The notes under the pieces were generated by a model, which searched no databases, was not told the origin of the DNA, and saw only the letters and a program-made list of their open reading frames with translations. Shown in pieces: positions 6,355 through 37,048 of a stretch of 37,048 nucleotides of DNA (the stretch's first letter is position 1; each line of letters opens with the position of its first letter). A program made the position numbers and the translations under genes. Where the stretch lies: NCBI GenBank assembly GCA_002049545.1, contig LLYT01000018.1, positions 1 through 37,048 of the forward strand. The letters run 5' to 3'. Source of the DNA: Deltaproteobacteria bacterium tcs-42. Lineage in GTDB: Bacteria; Desulfobacterota; Desulfuromonadia; Desulfuromonadales; Geopsychrobacteraceae.

Positions 6355-6933
6355 CTAAAACGTACCGACAAAACCAATCCGCACATCATCATCAATGGTT
6401 GACCTGCCGCTGCGATCTTCAACATCCAGACGTACATTCTGATAACCGACGAACAACTTCACCTTCGGCATGACCGCGTAAGTCAAGCGGACTCCGGTTT
6501 CGAGGAGACGCTCCGAATCACGGAAGGAGAACACCTGCGGCGCATAATCAATCCCGGCAGAAATCCCCAACCCCTCAAGGTGCGGAATCACGTAATCAAC
6601 ATTGAACCCGACACCCAGATTAATAAAATCGACGTCAGGGTCGGCCTTACCAGCGTACAGCTTCACACCGGCACCCACACCGAGACCGGCAAAGTTTCCC
6701 GGATGCCCGACAAAATCGAGGCCGAGGCTTCCCAGTCTGGTGCCACCCTCATCATTGAACAGAAAACGACCCTTGAGAAAGGTCGAGCCATAGGCCGTAT
6801 CTTCAGACAAACCGGTTTCATAGGCGAGTTGAAAGCTATCGTCATTAAAACCGATATCAAACCTATCTGCAGAGACCGTCGAGACAGAGATAAAAACGAG
6901 AAAACAGAATGAAAACAACACACGAAAAATCAT
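6355..6933 (-). CDS. YfaZ-family outer-membrane protein
   Basis: The 192-residue protein has a clear signal peptide (hydrophobic residues 4-20, cleavage probably after VSA-D). The rest is alternating beta-strand-like sequence ending in aromatic Phe (RIGFVGTF), as outer-membrane barrels do. The pattern DRFDIGFNDDSFQLAYE near the mature N-terminus and the central GVGAGVKLYAG fit the YfaZ family. Its function is unknown. GGAGG lies 6-7 bp before the ATG. It is monocistronic. The stop codon abuts the Fic fragment, so downstream sequence was replaced, but the C-terminal Phe indicates that the barrel itself is complete. Confidence 0.8.
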   Translation of the reverse strand: MIFRVLFSFCFLVFISVSTVSADRFDIGFNDDSFQLAYETGLSEDTAYGSTFLKGRFLFNDEGGTRLGSLGLDFVGHPGNFAGLGVGAGVKLYAGKADPDVDFINLGVGFNVDYVIPHLEGLGISAGIDYAPQVFSFRDSERLLETGVRLTYAVMPKVKLFVGYQNVRLDVEDRSGRSTIDDDVRIGFVGTF

Positions 6934-8408: not shown

Positions 8409-8456
8409 GGGCTGTTATCGTGAGTGTGATTAAAAATACCAGCGCAATAACAGCCC
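8409..8456. terminator. Inverted repeat between convergent genes
   Basis: GGGCTGTTAT (8409-8418) pairs perfectly with ATAACAGCCC (8447-8456) across a 28-base loop. It spans the last codons of the outer-membrane gene and the gap to the DHOD-like gene. There is no T-run, so termination is only a possibility. Confidence 0.4.
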
Positions 8457-9740
8457 ACCACTATCATTCGCCGAACCAAACTCACTGCGAATAACGGGCA
8501 ACTGTGTTAGCGGATGAGTTTGTGATTTCCTGCCCGTGGTGATGGCCCAGAATAGATCAAGTTGCAGGTTGTCAGCCAGAGAAATGACCAATTGTGGTCG
8601 AAGCAAACTGGAGTGATCCTCGATATTATAAATCAATAGCCCACTTGCTGTGACCAACGGATGAAATTGATATGACGGACCCAACAACAGGTAGTGCCGT
8701 GCCAGTAAAAAACTGAGCCCTTCGGAGATCGGTGCTGACCTGGCTACCAGGGGATATTCATTCGGGTTGTCGCTGCCGATGCCATTAAACAGATATTCAC
8801 CGAGCAATACCAGACCATTGTCAAAACGGTACCATCCTTCCACAGCGGCCATCCCGAAATCGTCATACAGATCTCCCTGCGGTTGGTCCACATCTGTGCC
8901 TTGATACCAGCTCAGTTCAGCCTTAAGCCCGACCTTCCCAACTTCTCCGCCCAGGCCGAATCCCAGCATTGAACGCCCTCTTAAACGTCCCCCAATAGCG
9001 AGGACATCGATATTTTTGAAGTTCTCACCCAAGGTCAGCAAATAGCTGTTGTCTTTTTTTTCAGCCCCGAATACAGCGATCCCGCCAACCTGTCCCGCCA
9101 TGCCGAAATAGCGAGTTGCTCTGATGGCATCCACTCCGGAACGGACATCGACATCAATGGCATCGGGGGGAAACGGGGCAATGATATCGAGGGGTGAAAA
9201 CAGGCTGATGCGACCGAATCCGACAGCTTGCCGTCCAAACGACCAATTAAAATCACCCATTTTCCCACGCAGATTGAGCCGGTCAACCTGCAACTGCCCA
9301 CTGAATCGCTCACCCTCATGCCAGTTTTTCTGCAAATCGAAACGACGATTGACCGAATTCTCCGGCAACGCAACAACTCCGGCGCGACTGACCCAGAGTA
9401 ATTGCTGATCCAGAGAAAATTCGAGATCAAAACGCTGAAGCAACTGCCCGGTCAGATCAAGACGGATACGATCAGCAGACAACGCTCCCTCCTGATCTGC
9501 AGAGGGAAAATTTTCGCTATAAAGATTGAAGGATTTCAGTGAGCCGTGAATGGAGATATCATCGAGGTTTTTCGCCACCGAATAAGACGGAGCAACGATG
9601 ATCCCCAGAACAATTATAAGCGGCAGAATCGACTTGCACGGCCGATGTAAAGGGGAAAATGTGAGCCTTGAGATGGGCGGGGCGAGCTCATCGGCGACGC
9701 TATTGAACAGGCGCATAAAAAGGACACGGAACCATTTCAC
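8430..9740 (-). CDS. Outer-membrane beta-barrel partner of the ABC cluster
   Basis: This protein of about 436 residues has an unusually long basic N-terminal region (1-36), a hydrophobic signal segment (about 37-57, SILPLIIVLGIIV then SYSVA), and strand-rich sequence (SLKSFNLYSENF, FDLEFSLDQQLLWVSR, NWSFGRQAVGFGRISLFSPL) ending in the aromatic RWYF typical of outer-membrane barrels. I do not recognise a named family. The GTG at 9740 overlaps the stop of the ABC ATPase gene (GTGA) and has GGAG 8 bp upstream, so coupling is likely. An ATG at 9716 would shorten the leader. Operon position suggests that it receives or passes on whatever the ABC system exports. Confidence 0.7.
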   Translation of the reverse strand: MKWFRVLFMRLFNSVADELAPPISRLTFSPLHRPCKSILPLIIVLGIIVAPSYSVAKNLDDISIHGSLKSFNLYSENFPSADQEGALSADRIRLDLTGQLLQRFDLEFSLDQQLLWVSRAGVVALPENSVNRRFDLQKNWHEGERFSGQLQVDRLNLRGKMGDFNWSFGRQAVGFGRISLFSPLDIIAPFPPDAIDVDVRSGVDAIRATRYFGMAGQVGGIAVFGAEKKDNSYLLTLGENFKNIDVLAIGGRLRGRSMLGFGLGGEVGKVGLKAELSWYQGTDVDQPQGDLYDDFGMAAVEGWYRFDNGLVLLGEYLFNGIGSDNPNEYPLVARSAPISEGLSFLLARHYLLLGPSYQFHPLVTASGLLIYNIEDHSSLLRPQLVISLADNLQLDLFWAITTGRKSQTHPLTQLPVIRSEFGSANDSGGLLLRWYF

Positions 9741-10414
9741 TGGTCCGACTCCAGATGACCATCGTGCAAACGGACGACCCGTTTGCCATGGGAAATCACC
9801 AGCGGATCGTGGGAGCTGAAAATGAAGGTTGCGCCCTGCTCCTGGTTCAGCCGCTGCATCAATGCCAGCAACTCTTCACTGGCGTGGGAATCGAGACTGG
9901 CAGTCGGTTCATCGGCCAGAACCACCGTCGGTTCGGAAGCCATGGCTCGGGCAATAGCAACCCGCTGTTGCTGTCCCCCCGAAAGGTCAGAAGGTTTCCG
10001 ATTTTCCAGCCCATCCAGCCCTAACAAAGAAAAAAGATCCGTTACTCGCTCACGGCGCTCTCTTTTGTCGACGCGCTGTAACATCAGGGTAAATTCAGCA
10101 TTTTCAGCGGCGGTTAACACCGGAATCAGATTATAAGACTGAAAAATGAACCCGATATTGCGCAAACGCAATTCAGAAAGCATTTTTTGATCGGCGTGAC
10201 CAATTTCCTGACCTTCCAACCAGATTTCCCCACGGGTGGGCTGATCAAGGCAGCCGATCATGTTGAGCAGCGTGGTTTTACCGCTCCCGGAAGGACCGGC
10301 AAAGACACTGAATTCTCCCGCTTCGATTGACAAAGAAAAATCATCAACAGCAACCACCTCCTGATTGCCGAGGGGATATATTTTGGTGACCGATTTCAAT
10401 TCAATTAATGCCAT
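9737..10414 (-). CDS. ABC transporter ATPase, LolD/MacB type
   Basis: The 225-residue nucleotide-binding protein has Walker A GPSGSGKTT (about 40-48), the Q-loop in IGFIFQSYNLIPVLTA, signature LSGGQQQRVAIARA, Walker B VVLADEPTASLD and a switch His in FSSHD. The YNLIPVLTAAEN stretch is typical of the LolD/MacB/FtsE branch, which powers mechanotransmission ABC systems rather than substrate channels. It would drive the two FtsX-type permeases encoded just upstream in the same direction. It is separated from the second permease gene by about 135 bp of non-coding DNA and overlaps the outer-membrane gene by 3 bases. Confidence 0.93.
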   Translation of the reverse strand: MALIELKSVTKIYPLGNQEVVAVDDFSLSIEAGEFSVFAGPSGSGKTTLLNMIGCLDQPTRGEIWLEGQEIGHADQKMLSELRLRNIGFIFQSYNLIPVLTAAENAEFTLMLQRVDKRERRERVTDLFSLLGLDGLENRKPSDLSGGQQQRVAIARAMASEPTVVLADEPTASLDSHASEELLALMQRLNQEQGATFIFSSHDPLVISHGKRVVRLHDGHLESDQ

Positions 10415-10548
10415 ATTGCGACAAACCTTCCCGGAGTATAACCATCATCTTTTACGGCAGTGCAGATTTCAATTCCCCTCACCCGGCCCCCCTTGCCCAG
10501 GAGAGGAAATCTTTCAAGTTGGCAGAAGATTAACGCCAACCGGAAATC

Positions 10549-11781
10549 TCAATGATGCCTTATCGCAGCAGCCGGACTGATCCTCCCTGCCTTGACGGCT
10601 GGATAAACCGCTGCCAGCAGGGACAAAATCAGCAAATAGACTGAAATCTTCCCCATCCAGGGGAGATCCCAACCTGCCCGCATGATGGGATCGAAAACGA
10701 CCCCGCCAAACTCGAGAGTTTCACTGATAAAGTTGCGCATATCGATACCGACCACCTGCAGATACCAGGTTGCCAGGGAGCCAAGACTACTGCCAATCAC
10801 CATCGATACCAGCCCCAGCAACAAAGCTTCGATGAAAACCAGTATGCGCAATCTCGCCGTGCTGGCTCCAACCGCCAGAATAATTCCGAATTCACGAAAT
10901 CGCTCCATAACCGACATCAACAGCGTATTAATCACCCCGATAGTGACAATCAGCATCATGATCACAAAGATAAATTTCTGACTGGCATAATCGAGCCGGA
11001 TCGCATTGTAAAGGTTGGGCATCGCCCTTTCCCAGCTCATTCCTTCCAGAGTACTGTGAGGTTTCAGCAGTTCTTGCAATTGTGGCAATACCAAATAATT
11101 AAGGTCCTGATCTTCCAGAACAATCGCCAATTCGTGAATATCATCGGGATTTCCAACCATTGCGGCAGCTCGATTGTGCCCAACCATCAGCAATCTCTTA
11201 TCAACGCTTTTTATTCCCGTTTTGATCACTCCGTGAACCCGGAACATTTCACTGACCAGTTCTCCGGAACGGTGTTGCAGGGTGACAACAAATTTATTCC
11301 CCTTCTTCAATTGAAGTTCCTTCAGTAGCAGATGACCAAGAATCGCTTCCCGCCCCTCCAGAGAGGTCAACCATTGATCATCCGGCAACCCCCGTAAAAA
11401 AGGATTGACCTGCCGTTCTACCGCAGGAACCACTCCGGTGAGCAAGATACCGCGACTTTCCCGACTTGACTGGGCCAGTCCCGGCAGATAAAGCCGTGGC
11501 AAAACCGCCTCGACACCATCAATCTGACCGATTTCCCCGGCCAGATCGTGAGGATTGAATGAGAGCTTTTCATCGCGAGTTTTCAAGTAGTCTTGCCGAA
11601 AAACCACCAGATGCCCGGTTCCTGCACGGACACCGCTATCGATCATGGCCGAATAGACTCCGTAAGAGAGATTATGAAATGCCTGGATCAGCATCAGACT
11701 GAAACTGAGGGCCGCCAGAGTTATCAGGGTGCGTCGCCGGCTACGCCAGAGGTTTTTCCAGGCCAGATTAAACAGTTCCAT
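10549..11781 (-). CDS. FtsX-type ABC permease (second)
   Basis: This protein of about 410 residues has the MacB/LolC layout. A basic N-terminus (LAWKNLWRSRRRTLI) leads into one membrane helix, followed by a large periplasmic MacB_PCD-like domain (about 45-265), then three C-terminal helices with the FtsX motif ERFREFGIILAVGAS, and a final PAVKAGRISPAAAIRHH. The ATG at 11781 is preceded by AGGAG at 5-6 bp and gives the normal family start; an upstream frame to 11871 is not supported. It probably pairs with the permease encoded upstream as a heterodimer, as LolC and LolE do. Confidence 0.88.
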   Translation of the reverse strand: MELFNLAWKNLWRSRRRTLITLAALSFSLMLIQAFHNLSYGVYSAMIDSGVRAGTGHLVVFRQDYLKTRDEKLSFNPHDLAGEIGQIDGVEAVLPRLYLPGLAQSSRESRGILLTGVVPAVERQVNPFLRGLPDDQWLTSLEGREAILGHLLLKELQLKKGNKFVVTLQHRSGELVSEMFRVHGVIKTGIKSVDKRLLMVGHNRAAAMVGNPDDIHELAIVLEDQDLNYLVLPQLQELLKPHSTLEGMSWERAMPNLYNAIRLDYASQKFIFVIMMLIVTIGVINTLLMSVMERFREFGIILAVGASTARLRILVFIEALLLGLVSMVIGSSLGSLATWYLQVVGIDMRNFISETLEFGGVVFDPIMRAGWDLPWMGKISVYLLILSLLAAVYPAVKAGRISPAAAIRHH

Positions 11782-12047
11782 AGGACTCCTGACGGACAAG
11801 CAAAAATCGACAAGACAGCTGCAACGACTATATTTAATCCAGACCTTCGAATCTTTCCCAGCATCTGACAAAGGGGGATTCGTATGCCAGGGCTAACGTT
11901 GATGCACTTGTAAAAGCTTATGGGTCGCTAAGCATTACTTTCGTCCCACAAGGTCTGGTGTTTTTTTCAGGGGCGAAAGGATGCATCAGGGATGTCCGGG
12001 TCCTGACAAAACGCCGTACGCTGCGGGGCGGACTTTTTGCGATGCCA
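11782..12047 (-). other. Long gap inside the ABC cluster
   Basis: 266 bp separate two permease genes in a cluster whose other junctions overlap or are about 135 bp. The minus strand has no convincing gene, and I see no clean terminator. It may hold a secondary promoter or processing site. Confidence 0.4.
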
Positions 12048-13268
12048 TCACTCCTCACGAATTGCGACGACGGGCTGCATTTTTGCCGCACGGTTTGCCG
12101 GCAGAAAACCAGCCAACAGACTGACGATCAACAGACAGACAGAAGGAATCAAAATGTTGCCCGGCTCAATCACCGCATGGAGCCGGGGCAGAATGGTTCC
12201 ACCAGCATAGGTAATCGGCGTCAGAGTACCGGACAGATCGACCCCGACCAGCGCCATATACAGGCTCAAGGCGATTCCGACAACAGCTCCGCAAACCAAT
12301 CCCAGACTCCCCATAATGGTGGTTTCCAGAAGAATCATGACGCGGATTTGTCCCGGTCGCATGCCAAGTGCCATCAGCACTCCAAGTTCTCGGGTCCGCT
12401 CCATGACCGCCATAAAAAACGTATTGAGAATCCCCAAACCTGTCGCGATATAAAGAATAGTGACGATAATCATTCGCGAAACATCGTAACTGGCAACAAC
12501 CTCAGCCATCTCCGGCAACATCTCACCCCAGTCCAGAATTTCCAGCGTCTCATGCAGGTCAACCCGATACTTTTCTGCCAGGGAAGCTGCATTGAACGGC
12601 TGATCGATCTTTACGGCAATTTCATGAACCTGCCCCGGCAAAACCAGAACCTGTTGCAACCAGGCTAACGGCACCAGAGCCAACGAATTGTCATGACCAA
12701 TATCACCGGTAGAAAAAATCCCCTTGACCAGCAACAGATCGTTACCAATTGACCCATCTGCTGCCTGGGTGACAAAAACCAGCTGATCTCCCGGCACAAC
12801 ATTGAGACGGCGTGCCAGTCCGGAACCGAGAACAGCACCATTGGGGTCTTCAGTGGTCAGGTAATTTCCATCAATCAAGGATTCGTGCAGGCTGGTCACA
12901 GTCTGTTCCTGCAGCGGTAAAATCCCCAGAATTTCGGCCGGCGAGCTGTTCTGCTGACGGGAAAGCAAACCGAAGCTACGCAGGCGCTGTGAATAACCGA
13001 GAACGTCCTCCTGTTCCAGAACCGTTCCAATAGATTCGTCGCTTTGAAAATGGCGGAACATGTCCCGGTCATCCTGATAGCCTTTGGCACTGATCACCAG
13101 ATGACCGTAATACTGTTCCGTGGCCGTTGCGAGCATATCACGCAACATTCCGGAAAAAACTCCCAGCGCCAGAATCAGCAGGGCGGAAGAGATAATCATC
13201 GCCGACAGAGTCAAAAGTGTACGTCTGCGATTGCGCCAGATATTACGTAATGCCAGCTGGTAAAGCAT
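12048..13268 (-). CDS. FtsX-type ABC permease (first)
   Basis: The 406-residue protein has the same architecture as the other permease: LALRNIWRNRRRTLLTLSAM then a membrane helix, a periplasmic domain beginning about GHLVISAKGYQDD, and a C-terminal three-helix FtsX block with ERTRELGVLMALGMRPGQIR and a final NRAAKMQPVVAIREE. Its start codon overlaps the stop of the LolA-like gene (TAATG), which argues for co-translation. Together with the second permease and the ATPase it should form a mechanotransmission ABC complex acting on a periplasmic or membrane-anchored client. The client is not evident. Confidence 0.88.
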   Translation of the reverse strand: MLYQLALRNIWRNRRRTLLTLSAMIISSALLILALGVFSGMLRDMLATATEQYYGHLVISAKGYQDDRDMFRHFQSDESIGTVLEQEDVLGYSQRLRSFGLLSRQQNSSPAEILGILPLQEQTVTSLHESLIDGNYLTTEDPNGAVLGSGLARRLNVVPGDQLVFVTQAADGSIGNDLLLVKGIFSTGDIGHDNSLALVPLAWLQQVLVLPGQVHEIAVKIDQPFNAASLAEKYRVDLHETLEILDWGEMLPEMAEVVASYDVSRMIIVTILYIATGLGILNTFFMAVMERTRELGVLMALGMRPGQIRVMILLETTIMGSLGLVCGAVVGIALSLYMALVGVDLSGTLTPITYAGGTILPRLHAVIEPGNILIPSVCLLIVSLLAGFLPANRAAKMQPVVAIREE

Positions 13269-14020
13269 TAACGACGCCCTTTCAGGTTGCCGAGAGAAAA
13301 GAAGTCCTCCCTTAAGTCGACATCGAACTGCAATTTGCGGTAATGCATAACCGTCTTTTCTTGCGGTTTTTCCAGTGGCAAAACGGTCATTTTCAGCGGG
13401 ATGGTTCGCCCGCTGACCGTCTGCACATCAGCAAACAAAATCTGCCGTACCAGGATATCTGCTTCGTCAAAGTAATCGATCTGCAACGGAACCAATTGTT
13501 TTTTGCCAACCTGATAGATAATTTTACCCCAGATAACCGCAGCATCCGGCTTCGGTATCCCTTCAATCCACCAACTTTCACGGTTTTCATCGAGCAAGGT
13601 AAAATCGTAATCCTGATCAATATGATTCGCTTTAACCAGATCATCATTGGTGATATGGCTCCCCATCCAGGCCCCTCCCATCATCGATGGCGGGATACGG
13701 ATCACCCGATCGACCTTGGGCAGGTAATTCCAGACTTCGTTTTCCACCTTGAGGGTTGCCACCCCCTTTTCTTTCACCGGGGCGAGAATCCGCACCAAAA
13801 ACCGCTCCCGTCCGAGTGACCACGATTCCATTTGCAGATGACGTTTCCAATGCCCCGTAACAACCGTCATTTCCATTTCAGAAATCGCTGACTGCCCGGT
13901 GTATTGCTGTTCAACAGTCCGGATCAATTCACGCAGATCGATAGCTGCAGAAGAAACAATCGATCCAGATAAAAACAGAGCAACCAAAAATAAGACTTTA
14001 ATCAAAGTAGTAAATTTCAT
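13268..14020 (-). CDS. LolA-like outer-membrane lipoprotein-sorting protein
   Basis: This is a 250-residue secreted protein: signal peptide at about 1-24 (LIKVLFLVALFLSG, then SSA-A), then DLRELIRTVEQQYTGQSAIS and a beta-rich half-barrel with VWNYLPKVDRVIRIPPSMMG and GAWMGSHITNDDLV. These are hallmarks of the LolA-like family annotated as outer membrane lipoprotein-sorting protein. LolA proper shuttles lipoproteins across the periplasm; this divergent family is usually encoded with its own FtsX-type permeases, as here. The ATG at 14020 follows GGAG at good spacing; an ATG four codons upstream lacks one. It is the first gene of the five-gene cluster. Confidence 0.85.
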   Translation of the reverse strand: MKFTTLIKVLFLVALFLSGSIVSSAAIDLRELIRTVEQQYTGQSAISEMEMTVVTGHWKRHLQMESWSLGRERFLVRILAPVKEKGVATLKVENEVWNYLPKVDRVIRIPPSMMGGAWMGSHITNDDLVKANHIDQDYDFTLLDENRESWWIEGIPKPDAAVIWGKIIYQVGKKQLVPLQIDYFDEADILVRQILFADVQTVSGRTIPLKMTVLPLEKPQEKTVMHYRKLQFDVDLREDFFSLGNLKGRR

Positions 14021-14237
14021 TGTGATCTCCATGGAGAGATTGAAAAGAGATCAACGCCTTGCACTCTGTGCCGGTAAATCCCCGTTGATTCACTTTTAAT
14101 TATAGCCTTGATTATCACTGTTTCCCGAAAGAAACGTCAATTTTTGCCTGGCCACACCATAAGTTTTTGCGAATGCATCAAATCGGAATTTGGAAGAAAC
14201 CTGCTTAAACCGACAGACAAAATTCAGTCGTCTCCGT

Positions 14238-36899: not shown

Positions 36900-37048
36900 G
36901 TAGAGTAGAGAGCAACCCAGCCACATTTCACTGAATTGCTCCCCCTCGTCAAACCGGACATGCGGTTTTCTCGCATCCGGCTTTCCTATTGTCTTCTCAT
37001 CATTACTATCAGGGAAGCCTGCTATAATCGCACCAGCCCTAAGTTTCC
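36900..37048 (-). mobile_element. Group II intron 3' end (domains V and VI), partial
   Basis: Read on the minus strand, a 34-nt segment (36951-36984) has the domain V form: AAAGCCGGATGCG / CGCATGTCCGGTTT with an AGC triad, a GAAAA-type loop and a two-base bulge. A domain VI-like stem follows (GAGCAA at 36910-36915 with TTGCTC at 36936-36941 on plus), then CTCTAC at the 3' boundary, fitting the YAY intron end. The reverse transcriptase gene, if present, is off the window. Confidence 0.75.

Follow-up and report, generated by a model that had tools for sequence, protein, structure and literature searches.

What does a set of genes do that resembles the Lol lipoprotein-sorting machinery and also includes an outer-membrane barrel of its own? 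The question is raised by five genes of Deltaproteobacteria bacterium tcs-42, which lie in a stretch of 37,048 nucleotides (contig LLYT01000018.1 of assembly GCA_002049545.1; C32 in our numbering of the contigs of this 2.55-Mb genome) that we refer to as the window. All five are on the minus strand, in the transcription order LolA-like carrier, first permease, second permease, ATPase and barrel. An earlier note on this DNA had described them as a dedicated export cluster with overlapping junctions, which would carry a lipid or lipoprotein from the inner to the outer membrane. We find the five parts as described and in one direction, and the set is distinct from the housekeeping Lol system. The reading that we favour, and to which we give somewhat better than even chances, is that of a dedicated, ATP-driven envelope route in which a hydrophobic, lipid-like client would pass via a LolA-like carrier to the cluster's own barrel.

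The first gene (13268..14032, minus strand) encodes a LolA-like periplasmic carrier of the family PF17131 (E 1.2e-45; 155.9 bits for a gathering cut-off of 30). It starts at the ATG at 14032 or at a second in-frame ATG at 14020, which is the end given by the earlier note, and our own reading of the translation finds a signal peptide without a lipobox cysteine. Two permeases follow, designated P1 and P2 for the first and second position in the cluster. P1 (12048..13268, minus strand) has the FtsX/MacB fold, with matches to PF02687 (FtsX; 5.7e-18) and PF12704 (MacB_PCD; 1.9e-11). P2 (10549..11781, minus strand) is of the FtsX type (PF02687, 7.9e-15); its open frame reaches 11871, and the start was set at the ATG at 11781 because many relatives align from query residue 31. 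The ATP-binding cassette (ABC) ATPase (9737..10414, minus strand; PF00005, ABC_tran, 8.1e-35) is of the MacB/LolD/DevA type: its translation shows the Walker A motif GPSGSGKT, LSGGQ and Walker B, and it scores 217 bits with MacB, 205 with DevA and 198 with LolD, each below the curated cut-off. Last comes a gene for a protein of 436 residues (8430..9740, minus strand; start GTG 9740 or ATG 9716), which, from conservation and profile links, is predicted to be an outer-membrane beta-barrel. The junctions overlap at two of the four places, by 1 nucleotide between carrier and P1 and by 4 between ATPase and barrel (given the GTG start); P1 and P2 are separated by 266 nucleotides, and P2 and the ATPase by 134 (given the ATG at 11781), so that the claim of overlapping junctions holds for one half of them.

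Is this set simply the housekeeping Lol system of its genome? It is not, because a standard lolCE with its own ATPase, and likewise a LolA of the PF03548 family, are encoded elsewhere in the genome. Among five FtsX-domain matches in the genome, two belong to the cluster. The standard lolCE, on contig C24, reaches 394.9 bits for a cut-off of 362.45 in the curated lolCE model TIGR02212, and adjoins its ATPase as well as genes that we read from their translations as BamA-like and Skp-like; the PF03548 LolA is on contig C78. With the same model P1 and P2 score 141.5 and 114.9 bits, less than half of the cut-off, although lolCE is the best curated model for both; the cut-off is strict, being reached in 2 of 14 control genomes. 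The cluster ATPase falls short of the LolD model TIGR02211 (197.8 for a cut-off of 307.75), but so does the likely true LolD of the genome (283.2), and this cut-off discriminates poorly. The cluster carrier has no PF03548 match at E 0.1. In a survey of 60 genomes, that of tcs-42 included, lolCE exceeds the cut-off in 55, among which are all 29 genomes that carry the cluster; the five below it (G003 and G044, with partial matches of 311.7 and 303.9 bits, and G008, G029 and G050) are all without the cluster. As an aside on the housekeeping system, a single lolCE gene of the tcs-42 genome is over the cut-off (L077, 8220-9488), and because only one is, its LolCE may be a homodimer of the LolF type.

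How regularly do the five genes occur together? Counted at E 0.001, barrel matches were present in 33 and carrier matches in 42 of the 60 genomes, and both series of scores show a gap: 29 genomes have at least 273.8 bits for the barrel, the next one having 72.6, and 29 have at least 288 for the carrier, the next one having 201.2. The genomes with a strong barrel and those with a strong carrier are the same 29, and in 27 of them the five genes stand in one order on one contig, the cluster being split at contig ends in the other two (G005 and G020); the linkage is therefore not due to chance. The four weaker barrel matches are also in such clusters, three of them complete (L072, L073 and L075) and one ending with its contig (L074). 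When the search was extended to the phylum (395 genomes) with a profile built from 28 barrels, 54 genomes gave matches, of which 3 were already in the set, 38 provided further loci that we read, and 13 were left unread. All five genes are found in 33 of these 38 loci, in the same order in 32 and in a different one in L162, and three more loci (L141, L156 and L161) are interrupted by contig ends. As the barrel had served to find these loci, that they also contain carrier and permeases counts as an independent result. Both objections foreseen by the earlier note, a barrel not conserved with the cluster and a genome with no other lolCE, thus fall away, and the check that it proposed, whether the five genes are conserved together across species and co-occur with a standard lolCE, has a positive outcome.

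The cluster is accessory rather than universal. The named genomes that were scanned gave only two Desulfuromusa loci, both from metagenome-assembled genomes, with 81% and 82% identity across the barrel. Outside the phylum, all five genes are present in order in the record of a 2.06-Mb plasmid of Vibrio campbellii. That cluster is flanked on the same strand by genes for a GGDEF protein and a methyl-accepting chemotaxis protein (L134, 7399-8868 and 14318-16381). In 25 complete loci the pairwise distances of the five proteins correlate at 0.75 to 0.89, higher than in any of 999 permutations, which shows joint inheritance, not contact.

What, then, is the fifth protein? It has no Pfam or NCBIfam match at E 0.1. 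By our own reading it starts with a signal peptide; it has a GRQ-xxx-FG motif, and its C-terminal residue is phenylalanine in all 28 rows of the alignment. There are 13 amphipathic nine-residue peaks in the sequence, as compared to 6.6 +/- 1.9 in 500 shuffled versions, the top shuffle also having 13. From the signal peptide, the terminal phenylalanine, the amphipathic peaks and the homology that follows, we infer that it is probably an outer-membrane barrel.

Two other gene arrangements came to light in the relatives through weak carrier matches elsewhere in their genomes, from which 20 loci were fetched. An open frame of at least 422 codons lies directly downstream of the carrier in all 20. 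The arrangement is ATPase, one permease, carrier and barrel in 5 loci and RND pump, carrier and barrel in 14, while in L186 the contig ends at the carrier; the RND calls were made with a profile from one sequence, whose scores are low for some rows, and the one pump scanned with Pfam, that of L184, is MMPL. Aligned by hhalign in local mode, the window barrel family (71 rows) matches the barrels of the one-permease ABC loci at 98.8% (P 5e-17) and those of three RND groups at 98.9% (P 1.2e-17), 97.6% (P 2.9e-12) and 93.9% (P 1.6e-7, a single sequence). Reversed controls gave P 0.3 or worse, and the P1, ATPase and carrier profiles P 0.03 or worse. The window barrel is thus homologous at the profile level to barrels paired with PF17131-type carriers, be the motor an RND pump or a one-permease ABC transporter. 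The GRQ motif is found in 61 of 71 barrels of the window type, in 20 of 20 from the other arrangements, and in none of 11 DUF1302, 26 LolA-like and 27 P1 proteins; the pattern was defined after the sequences had been seen, so that these counts are descriptive only, and DUF1302 barrels have a similar stretch that lies outside the pattern. In a separate observation, plasmids of Pseudoalteromonas rhizosphaerae (L198, 5661-8810) and Haliovirga abyssi (L199, 5404-8714) carry an MMPL (RND) transporter gene that immediately precedes one annotated as 'outer membrane lipoprotein-sorting protein'.

Direct membership of the window barrel in DUF1302 was considered and rejected as unproven; the model PF06980 has no match in the 28 barrel orthologues at E 0.1. 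Two of the three RND-linked barrels that were scanned do match DUF1302 in Pfam (L185, 2.2e-25; L184, 1.1e-6), and the single-sequence RND barrel group matches it by profile at 90% (P 1.5e-6). Taken stepwise, these links make it most likely that the window barrel belongs to a superfamily that includes DUF1302. The earlier note had presented the barrel as a component added to a Lol system. It is indeed a conserved partner, but barrels of the same superfamily also accompany LolA-like carriers whose motor is an RND pump or a one-permease ABC transporter, and the set is more aptly regarded as one form, with an ABC motor, of a wider carrier-barrel scheme than as Lol machinery to which a component has been added.

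The carrier and the permeases depart from their Lol counterparts as well. The carrier profile (A3) matches solved chains of the LolA superfamily (9tp6, 4z48, 3buu and 3bk5) at E 4.8e-16 to 1e-10. As for DUF1329, Pfam gives a weak match to the carrier below the cut-off (E 0.0014), PF17131 conversely matches a DUF1329 protein of the same genome, and hhalign of A3 with a single DUF1329 sequence gives no link (P 0.22). As for the permeases, we calculated a quick maximum-likelihood tree of 60 sequences, several of them on long branches, of which 40 come from two-permease clusters (Vibrio included). LolCE forms a clade of its own with support 100; the union of the 40 cluster permeases has support 89. 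The first-position permeases, 20 in number, make up a single group (support 85). Those of the second position, also 20, fall into two groups (supports 95 and 99) whose relation to each other the tree leaves unsettled, the P2 of the window being with related loci at support 99. Branching within the first- and second-position groups is mirrored, which fits, without proving it, a single old duplication inherited as a pair.

In LolC, a hairpin hook contacts LolA, according to the available text of PMC11671585. The hairpin that we place as the hook is 5 residues shorter than in the LolCE of the same genome in all 10 P1 and all 10 P2 rows aligned, a part of the rows at hand (27 for P1), and the P1 version of it, which reads TQAADGSIGN in the window, is identical in 8 of the 10. 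The one-permease relative from Escherichia coli discussed below also has the short hairpin. The full-length hook hairpin typical of LolC/E permeases is thus missing from the cluster permeases aligned; the site is kept but has a different form, which suggests another way of docking the carrier. The likeness to LolA-LolC/E-LolD that the earlier note had seen therefore holds for the kind of parts, and breaks down at the lolCE cut-off, at PF03548 and at the hook.

The cluster can be compared with several described systems. With LolACDE it shares the pair of FtsX/MacB-fold permeases, the ATPase and a carrier of the LolA superfamily; it differs by the extra barrel, the shortened hook hairpin, the non-PF03548 carrier and its co-existence with a standard lolCE. 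With MacAB-TolC it shares the MacB-type ATPase and permease fold, but ATPase and permeases are separate genes, and within the cluster a LolA-like carrier and a barrel take the place of adaptor and TolC; no MacA adaptor or TolC was seen among the five genes or in the 18 largest groups of flanking genes at 67 loci, where no search dedicated to them was made. The available part of the report on Borrelia BBJ23-29 (PMC13078400) describes a LolA-like protein, a MacB/LolE-like ABC transporter and an Omp85 barrel, and proposes the export of a non-polar ligand. Here too an ABC transporter, a LolA-like protein and an outer-membrane barrel are in one cluster; as far as that part of the report describes it, the Borrelia set differs by the Omp85 family of its barrel, by tetratricopeptide repeat proteins, and by a single permease taken as a homodimer. 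The window barrel has no Omp85 match in Pfam.

Two further systems have RND motors. AmeABCD of Castellaniella defragrans consists, in the available text of PMC6394551, of the RND protein AmeD, the LolA-superfamily protein AmeB, the DUF1302 protein AmeA, and AmeC, and its deletion lowers monoterpene tolerance. Like the window set, it unites an inner-membrane motor, a LolA-superfamily carrier and an outer-membrane protein in one gene set, and the barrels appear distantly related via RND-linked intermediates. Unlike it, the window set has a two-permease ABC motor, no YCF48/AmeC-like gene, a PF17131 rather than a DUF1329 carrier, and a barrel that the DUF1302 model does not recognise. The tcs-42 genome also has an AmeABCD-like set, with RND pump, YCF48-like, DUF1329 and DUF1302 genes in a row on contig C96 (L080, 182-7553). 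In the aryl polyene clusters of E. coli, an RND pump with a LolA-like and a LolB-like protein is proposed, in the available part of PMC8253772, to deliver a polyene lipid to the outer membrane. This system (ApeL/ApeM/ApeN) resembles the window set in having a LolA-like chaperone dedicated to a hydrophobic polyene bound for the outer membrane, and differs from it by the RND motor and the LolB-like DUF3261 protein, no barrel being among the genes described in that part of the paper. To judge from these comparisons, the window set looks like an ABC-driven cousin of AmeABCD-type exporters. In searches of an open-licence library, from which most subscription papers are absent, no description of the two-permease ABC form appeared.

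Which client would such a system carry? The neighbourhood of the window-type loci gives few hints. Flanking frames, which are not proper gene calls, were grouped for 67 loci (25 of 27 same-strand upstream frames were scanned), and among the 18 largest groups no gene type has a fixed place beside most loci. The group with the most loci (21 of 67) resembles a loose assemblage of signalling genes in mixed orientation, and another (8 loci) looks like antisense frames; the only group at a fixed place is a TetR gene, directly upstream in 6 of the 67 loci.

A stronger hint comes from E. coli, where DNA like the one-permease relative is present in 375 of 5,426 complete genomes. In NZ_CP062824.1 (L197, 2638-16448) the genes are annotated as ATPase, hypothetical, permease, 'outer membrane lipoprotein-sorting protein' and hypothetical protein, and around them are genes for holo-acyl carrier protein (ACP) synthase, ACP, ketosynthases, dehydratase, reductase, aminomethyltransferase and malonyltransferase. 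The last of the five, a hypothetical protein and putative barrel, can be aligned to the window barrel profile along the C-terminal third of its length (85.8%, P 5e-6; 0.52 in the reversed control), and to none of the other barrel profiles. According to the available part of PMC6985545, the granadaene (cyl) operon of group B Streptococcus has most of the gene types of this fatty-acid/polyene-type cluster, and we infer a polyene lipid as the E. coli product. This supports a hydrophobic, lipid-like client for such systems, not the identity of the client in the window. AmeABCD, the polyene-like cluster of E. coli and the few loci with a TetR gene speak for a lipid or a small hydrophobic molecule. 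With respect to the alternatives offered by the earlier note, lipid or lipoprotein, these comparative hints lean to the former and leave the latter possible; the client of the window set is probably a hydrophobic, lipid-like molecule.

On the reading that we prefer, P1, P2 and the ATPase would form a heterodimeric type VII (LolCE/MacB-fold) ABC transporter. The client would enter between P1 and P2 from the inner membrane, and ATP-driven closure would expel it to the LolA-like carrier. Holding it in its half-barrel cavity, the PF17131 carrier would cross the periplasm and hand it over to the barrel, the putative distant relative of DUF1302, which would accept it for insertion into the outer membrane or for release.

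Several findings weigh against this reading. Window-type loci have no recurrent biosynthetic neighbour, and the client is argued from distant relatives. The barrel profile finds no relevant solved structure among PDB sequences, and an AlphaFold2 model of the barrel, built from three rows (window, L042 and L043), has a predicted local distance difference test score of 28.5 and no usable fold. The chain of profile links is uneven: a direct comparison of the window barrel with DUF1302 yields a weak match (31%, P 5e-4; 0.07 in the reversed control), the one-permease ABC barrels match the three RND groups poorly (11%, 2% and 55%, the last with the single sequence), and one RND-linked barrel (L195) has no DUF1302 match, matching instead AMIN and weakly, below the cut-off, Wzi. 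With the short hook hairpin, docking of the carrier would have to differ from that in LolC. The cluster is also patchy: of the 13 further genomes from its genus, 3 have a strong barrel match, and the 8 genomes from other orders of the class have no barrel match. In one of the 27 genomes with the ordered set (G035) an in-frame stop interrupts the carrier gene, and two of the 38 phylum loci are without carrier and permeases, L152 having the barrel alone and L154 ATPase and barrel.

Four other explanations have to be weighed. It is conceivable, if unlikely, that the set is an efflux pump for hydrophobic toxicants from the environment, in which carrier and barrel would do the work of MacA and TolC: MacB gives the best score of the ATPase, a TetR gene lies directly upstream in those 6 loci, and AmeABCD protects against monoterpenes (available text of PMC6394551), but the other 61 loci have no TetR gene of that group at that place, and in E. 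coli a relative is associated with a biosynthesis cluster. We consider it rather doubtful that the genes form a special-purpose lipoprotein pathway, that is, a second Lol line by which a single lipoprotein, or a few of them, would reach the outer membrane or the cell surface, with the barrel as insertase or flippase; this view is close to that of the earlier note and to one proposal for the Borrelia set. The lolCE model is the best one for both permeases, the carrier is in the LolA superfamily, and lipoproteins are named as a possible ligand of the Borrelia ABC/LolA-like/Omp85 set in the available part of PMC13078400. However, the permeases are far below the lolCE cut-off with the hook shortened, no recurrent partner gene emerged from the 18 largest groups at the 67 loci (where lipoproteins were not searched as such), and RND pumps, too, have barrels of this superfamily as partners, the RND analogues that have been described being tied, in the available texts, to small hydrophobic molecules. 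That the ABC transporter is a sensor or an importer, retrieving for example outer-membrane lipids, is very improbable: sequence cannot tell the direction, but an outward direction is described for LolCDE and the RND analogues in what is available of PMC11671585, PMC6394551 and PMC8253772. A spare copy of the housekeeping lolCDE-lolA beside an unrelated porin gene, which the overall similarity to LolACDE might evoke, is scarcely credible given a standard lolCE in all 29 cluster genomes, and a barrel and carrier that share the same 29 of 60 genomes and are linked across the phylum.

Some features of the window lie outside the five genes. The spacer between P1 and P2 (11785..12047, minus strand) includes, on its P1 side, one copy of an interspersed repeat about 150 bases long, which is present at 26 places in the genome including the spacer, the other 25 at 69-83% identity and some of them short. 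The repeat has no Rfam family and no inverted repeat, and it does not fold clearly better than shuffled sequences (z -1.13). In most relatives P1 and P2 are much closer, with the exception of L050 (about 180 bases), and the repeat-bearing spacer is outside the conserved operon. A small YfaZ-family protein (PF07437, 3.7e-8) is encoded at 6355-6933 on the same strand, downstream of the cluster and past an oppositely oriented gene, and the minus strand at 36900-36985 has a group II intron match (Rfam RF00029, 45.9 bits).

Beyond the window, it is possible, at a little less than even chances, that these loci represent a general, as yet unnamed envelope pathway in which a fixed pair of PF17131 carrier and GRQ-motif barrel brings hydrophobic molecules to the outer membrane or through it, and the motor is exchanged between a two-permease ABC transporter, a one-permease ABC transporter and an RND pump; if so, the window would hold its two-permease ABC form. 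The delivery to the outer membrane of hydrophobic molecules other than lipopolysaccharide, phospholipids and lipoproteins is poorly known. The automatic name 'lipoprotein-sorting protein' may mislead for such genes, and if the above is true, many 'hypothetical' barrels and 'outer membrane lipoprotein-sorting proteins' would be parts of one pathway with swappable motors, whose client could be approached by lipidomics of a single deletion, or predicted from biosynthetic neighbours where these are present.

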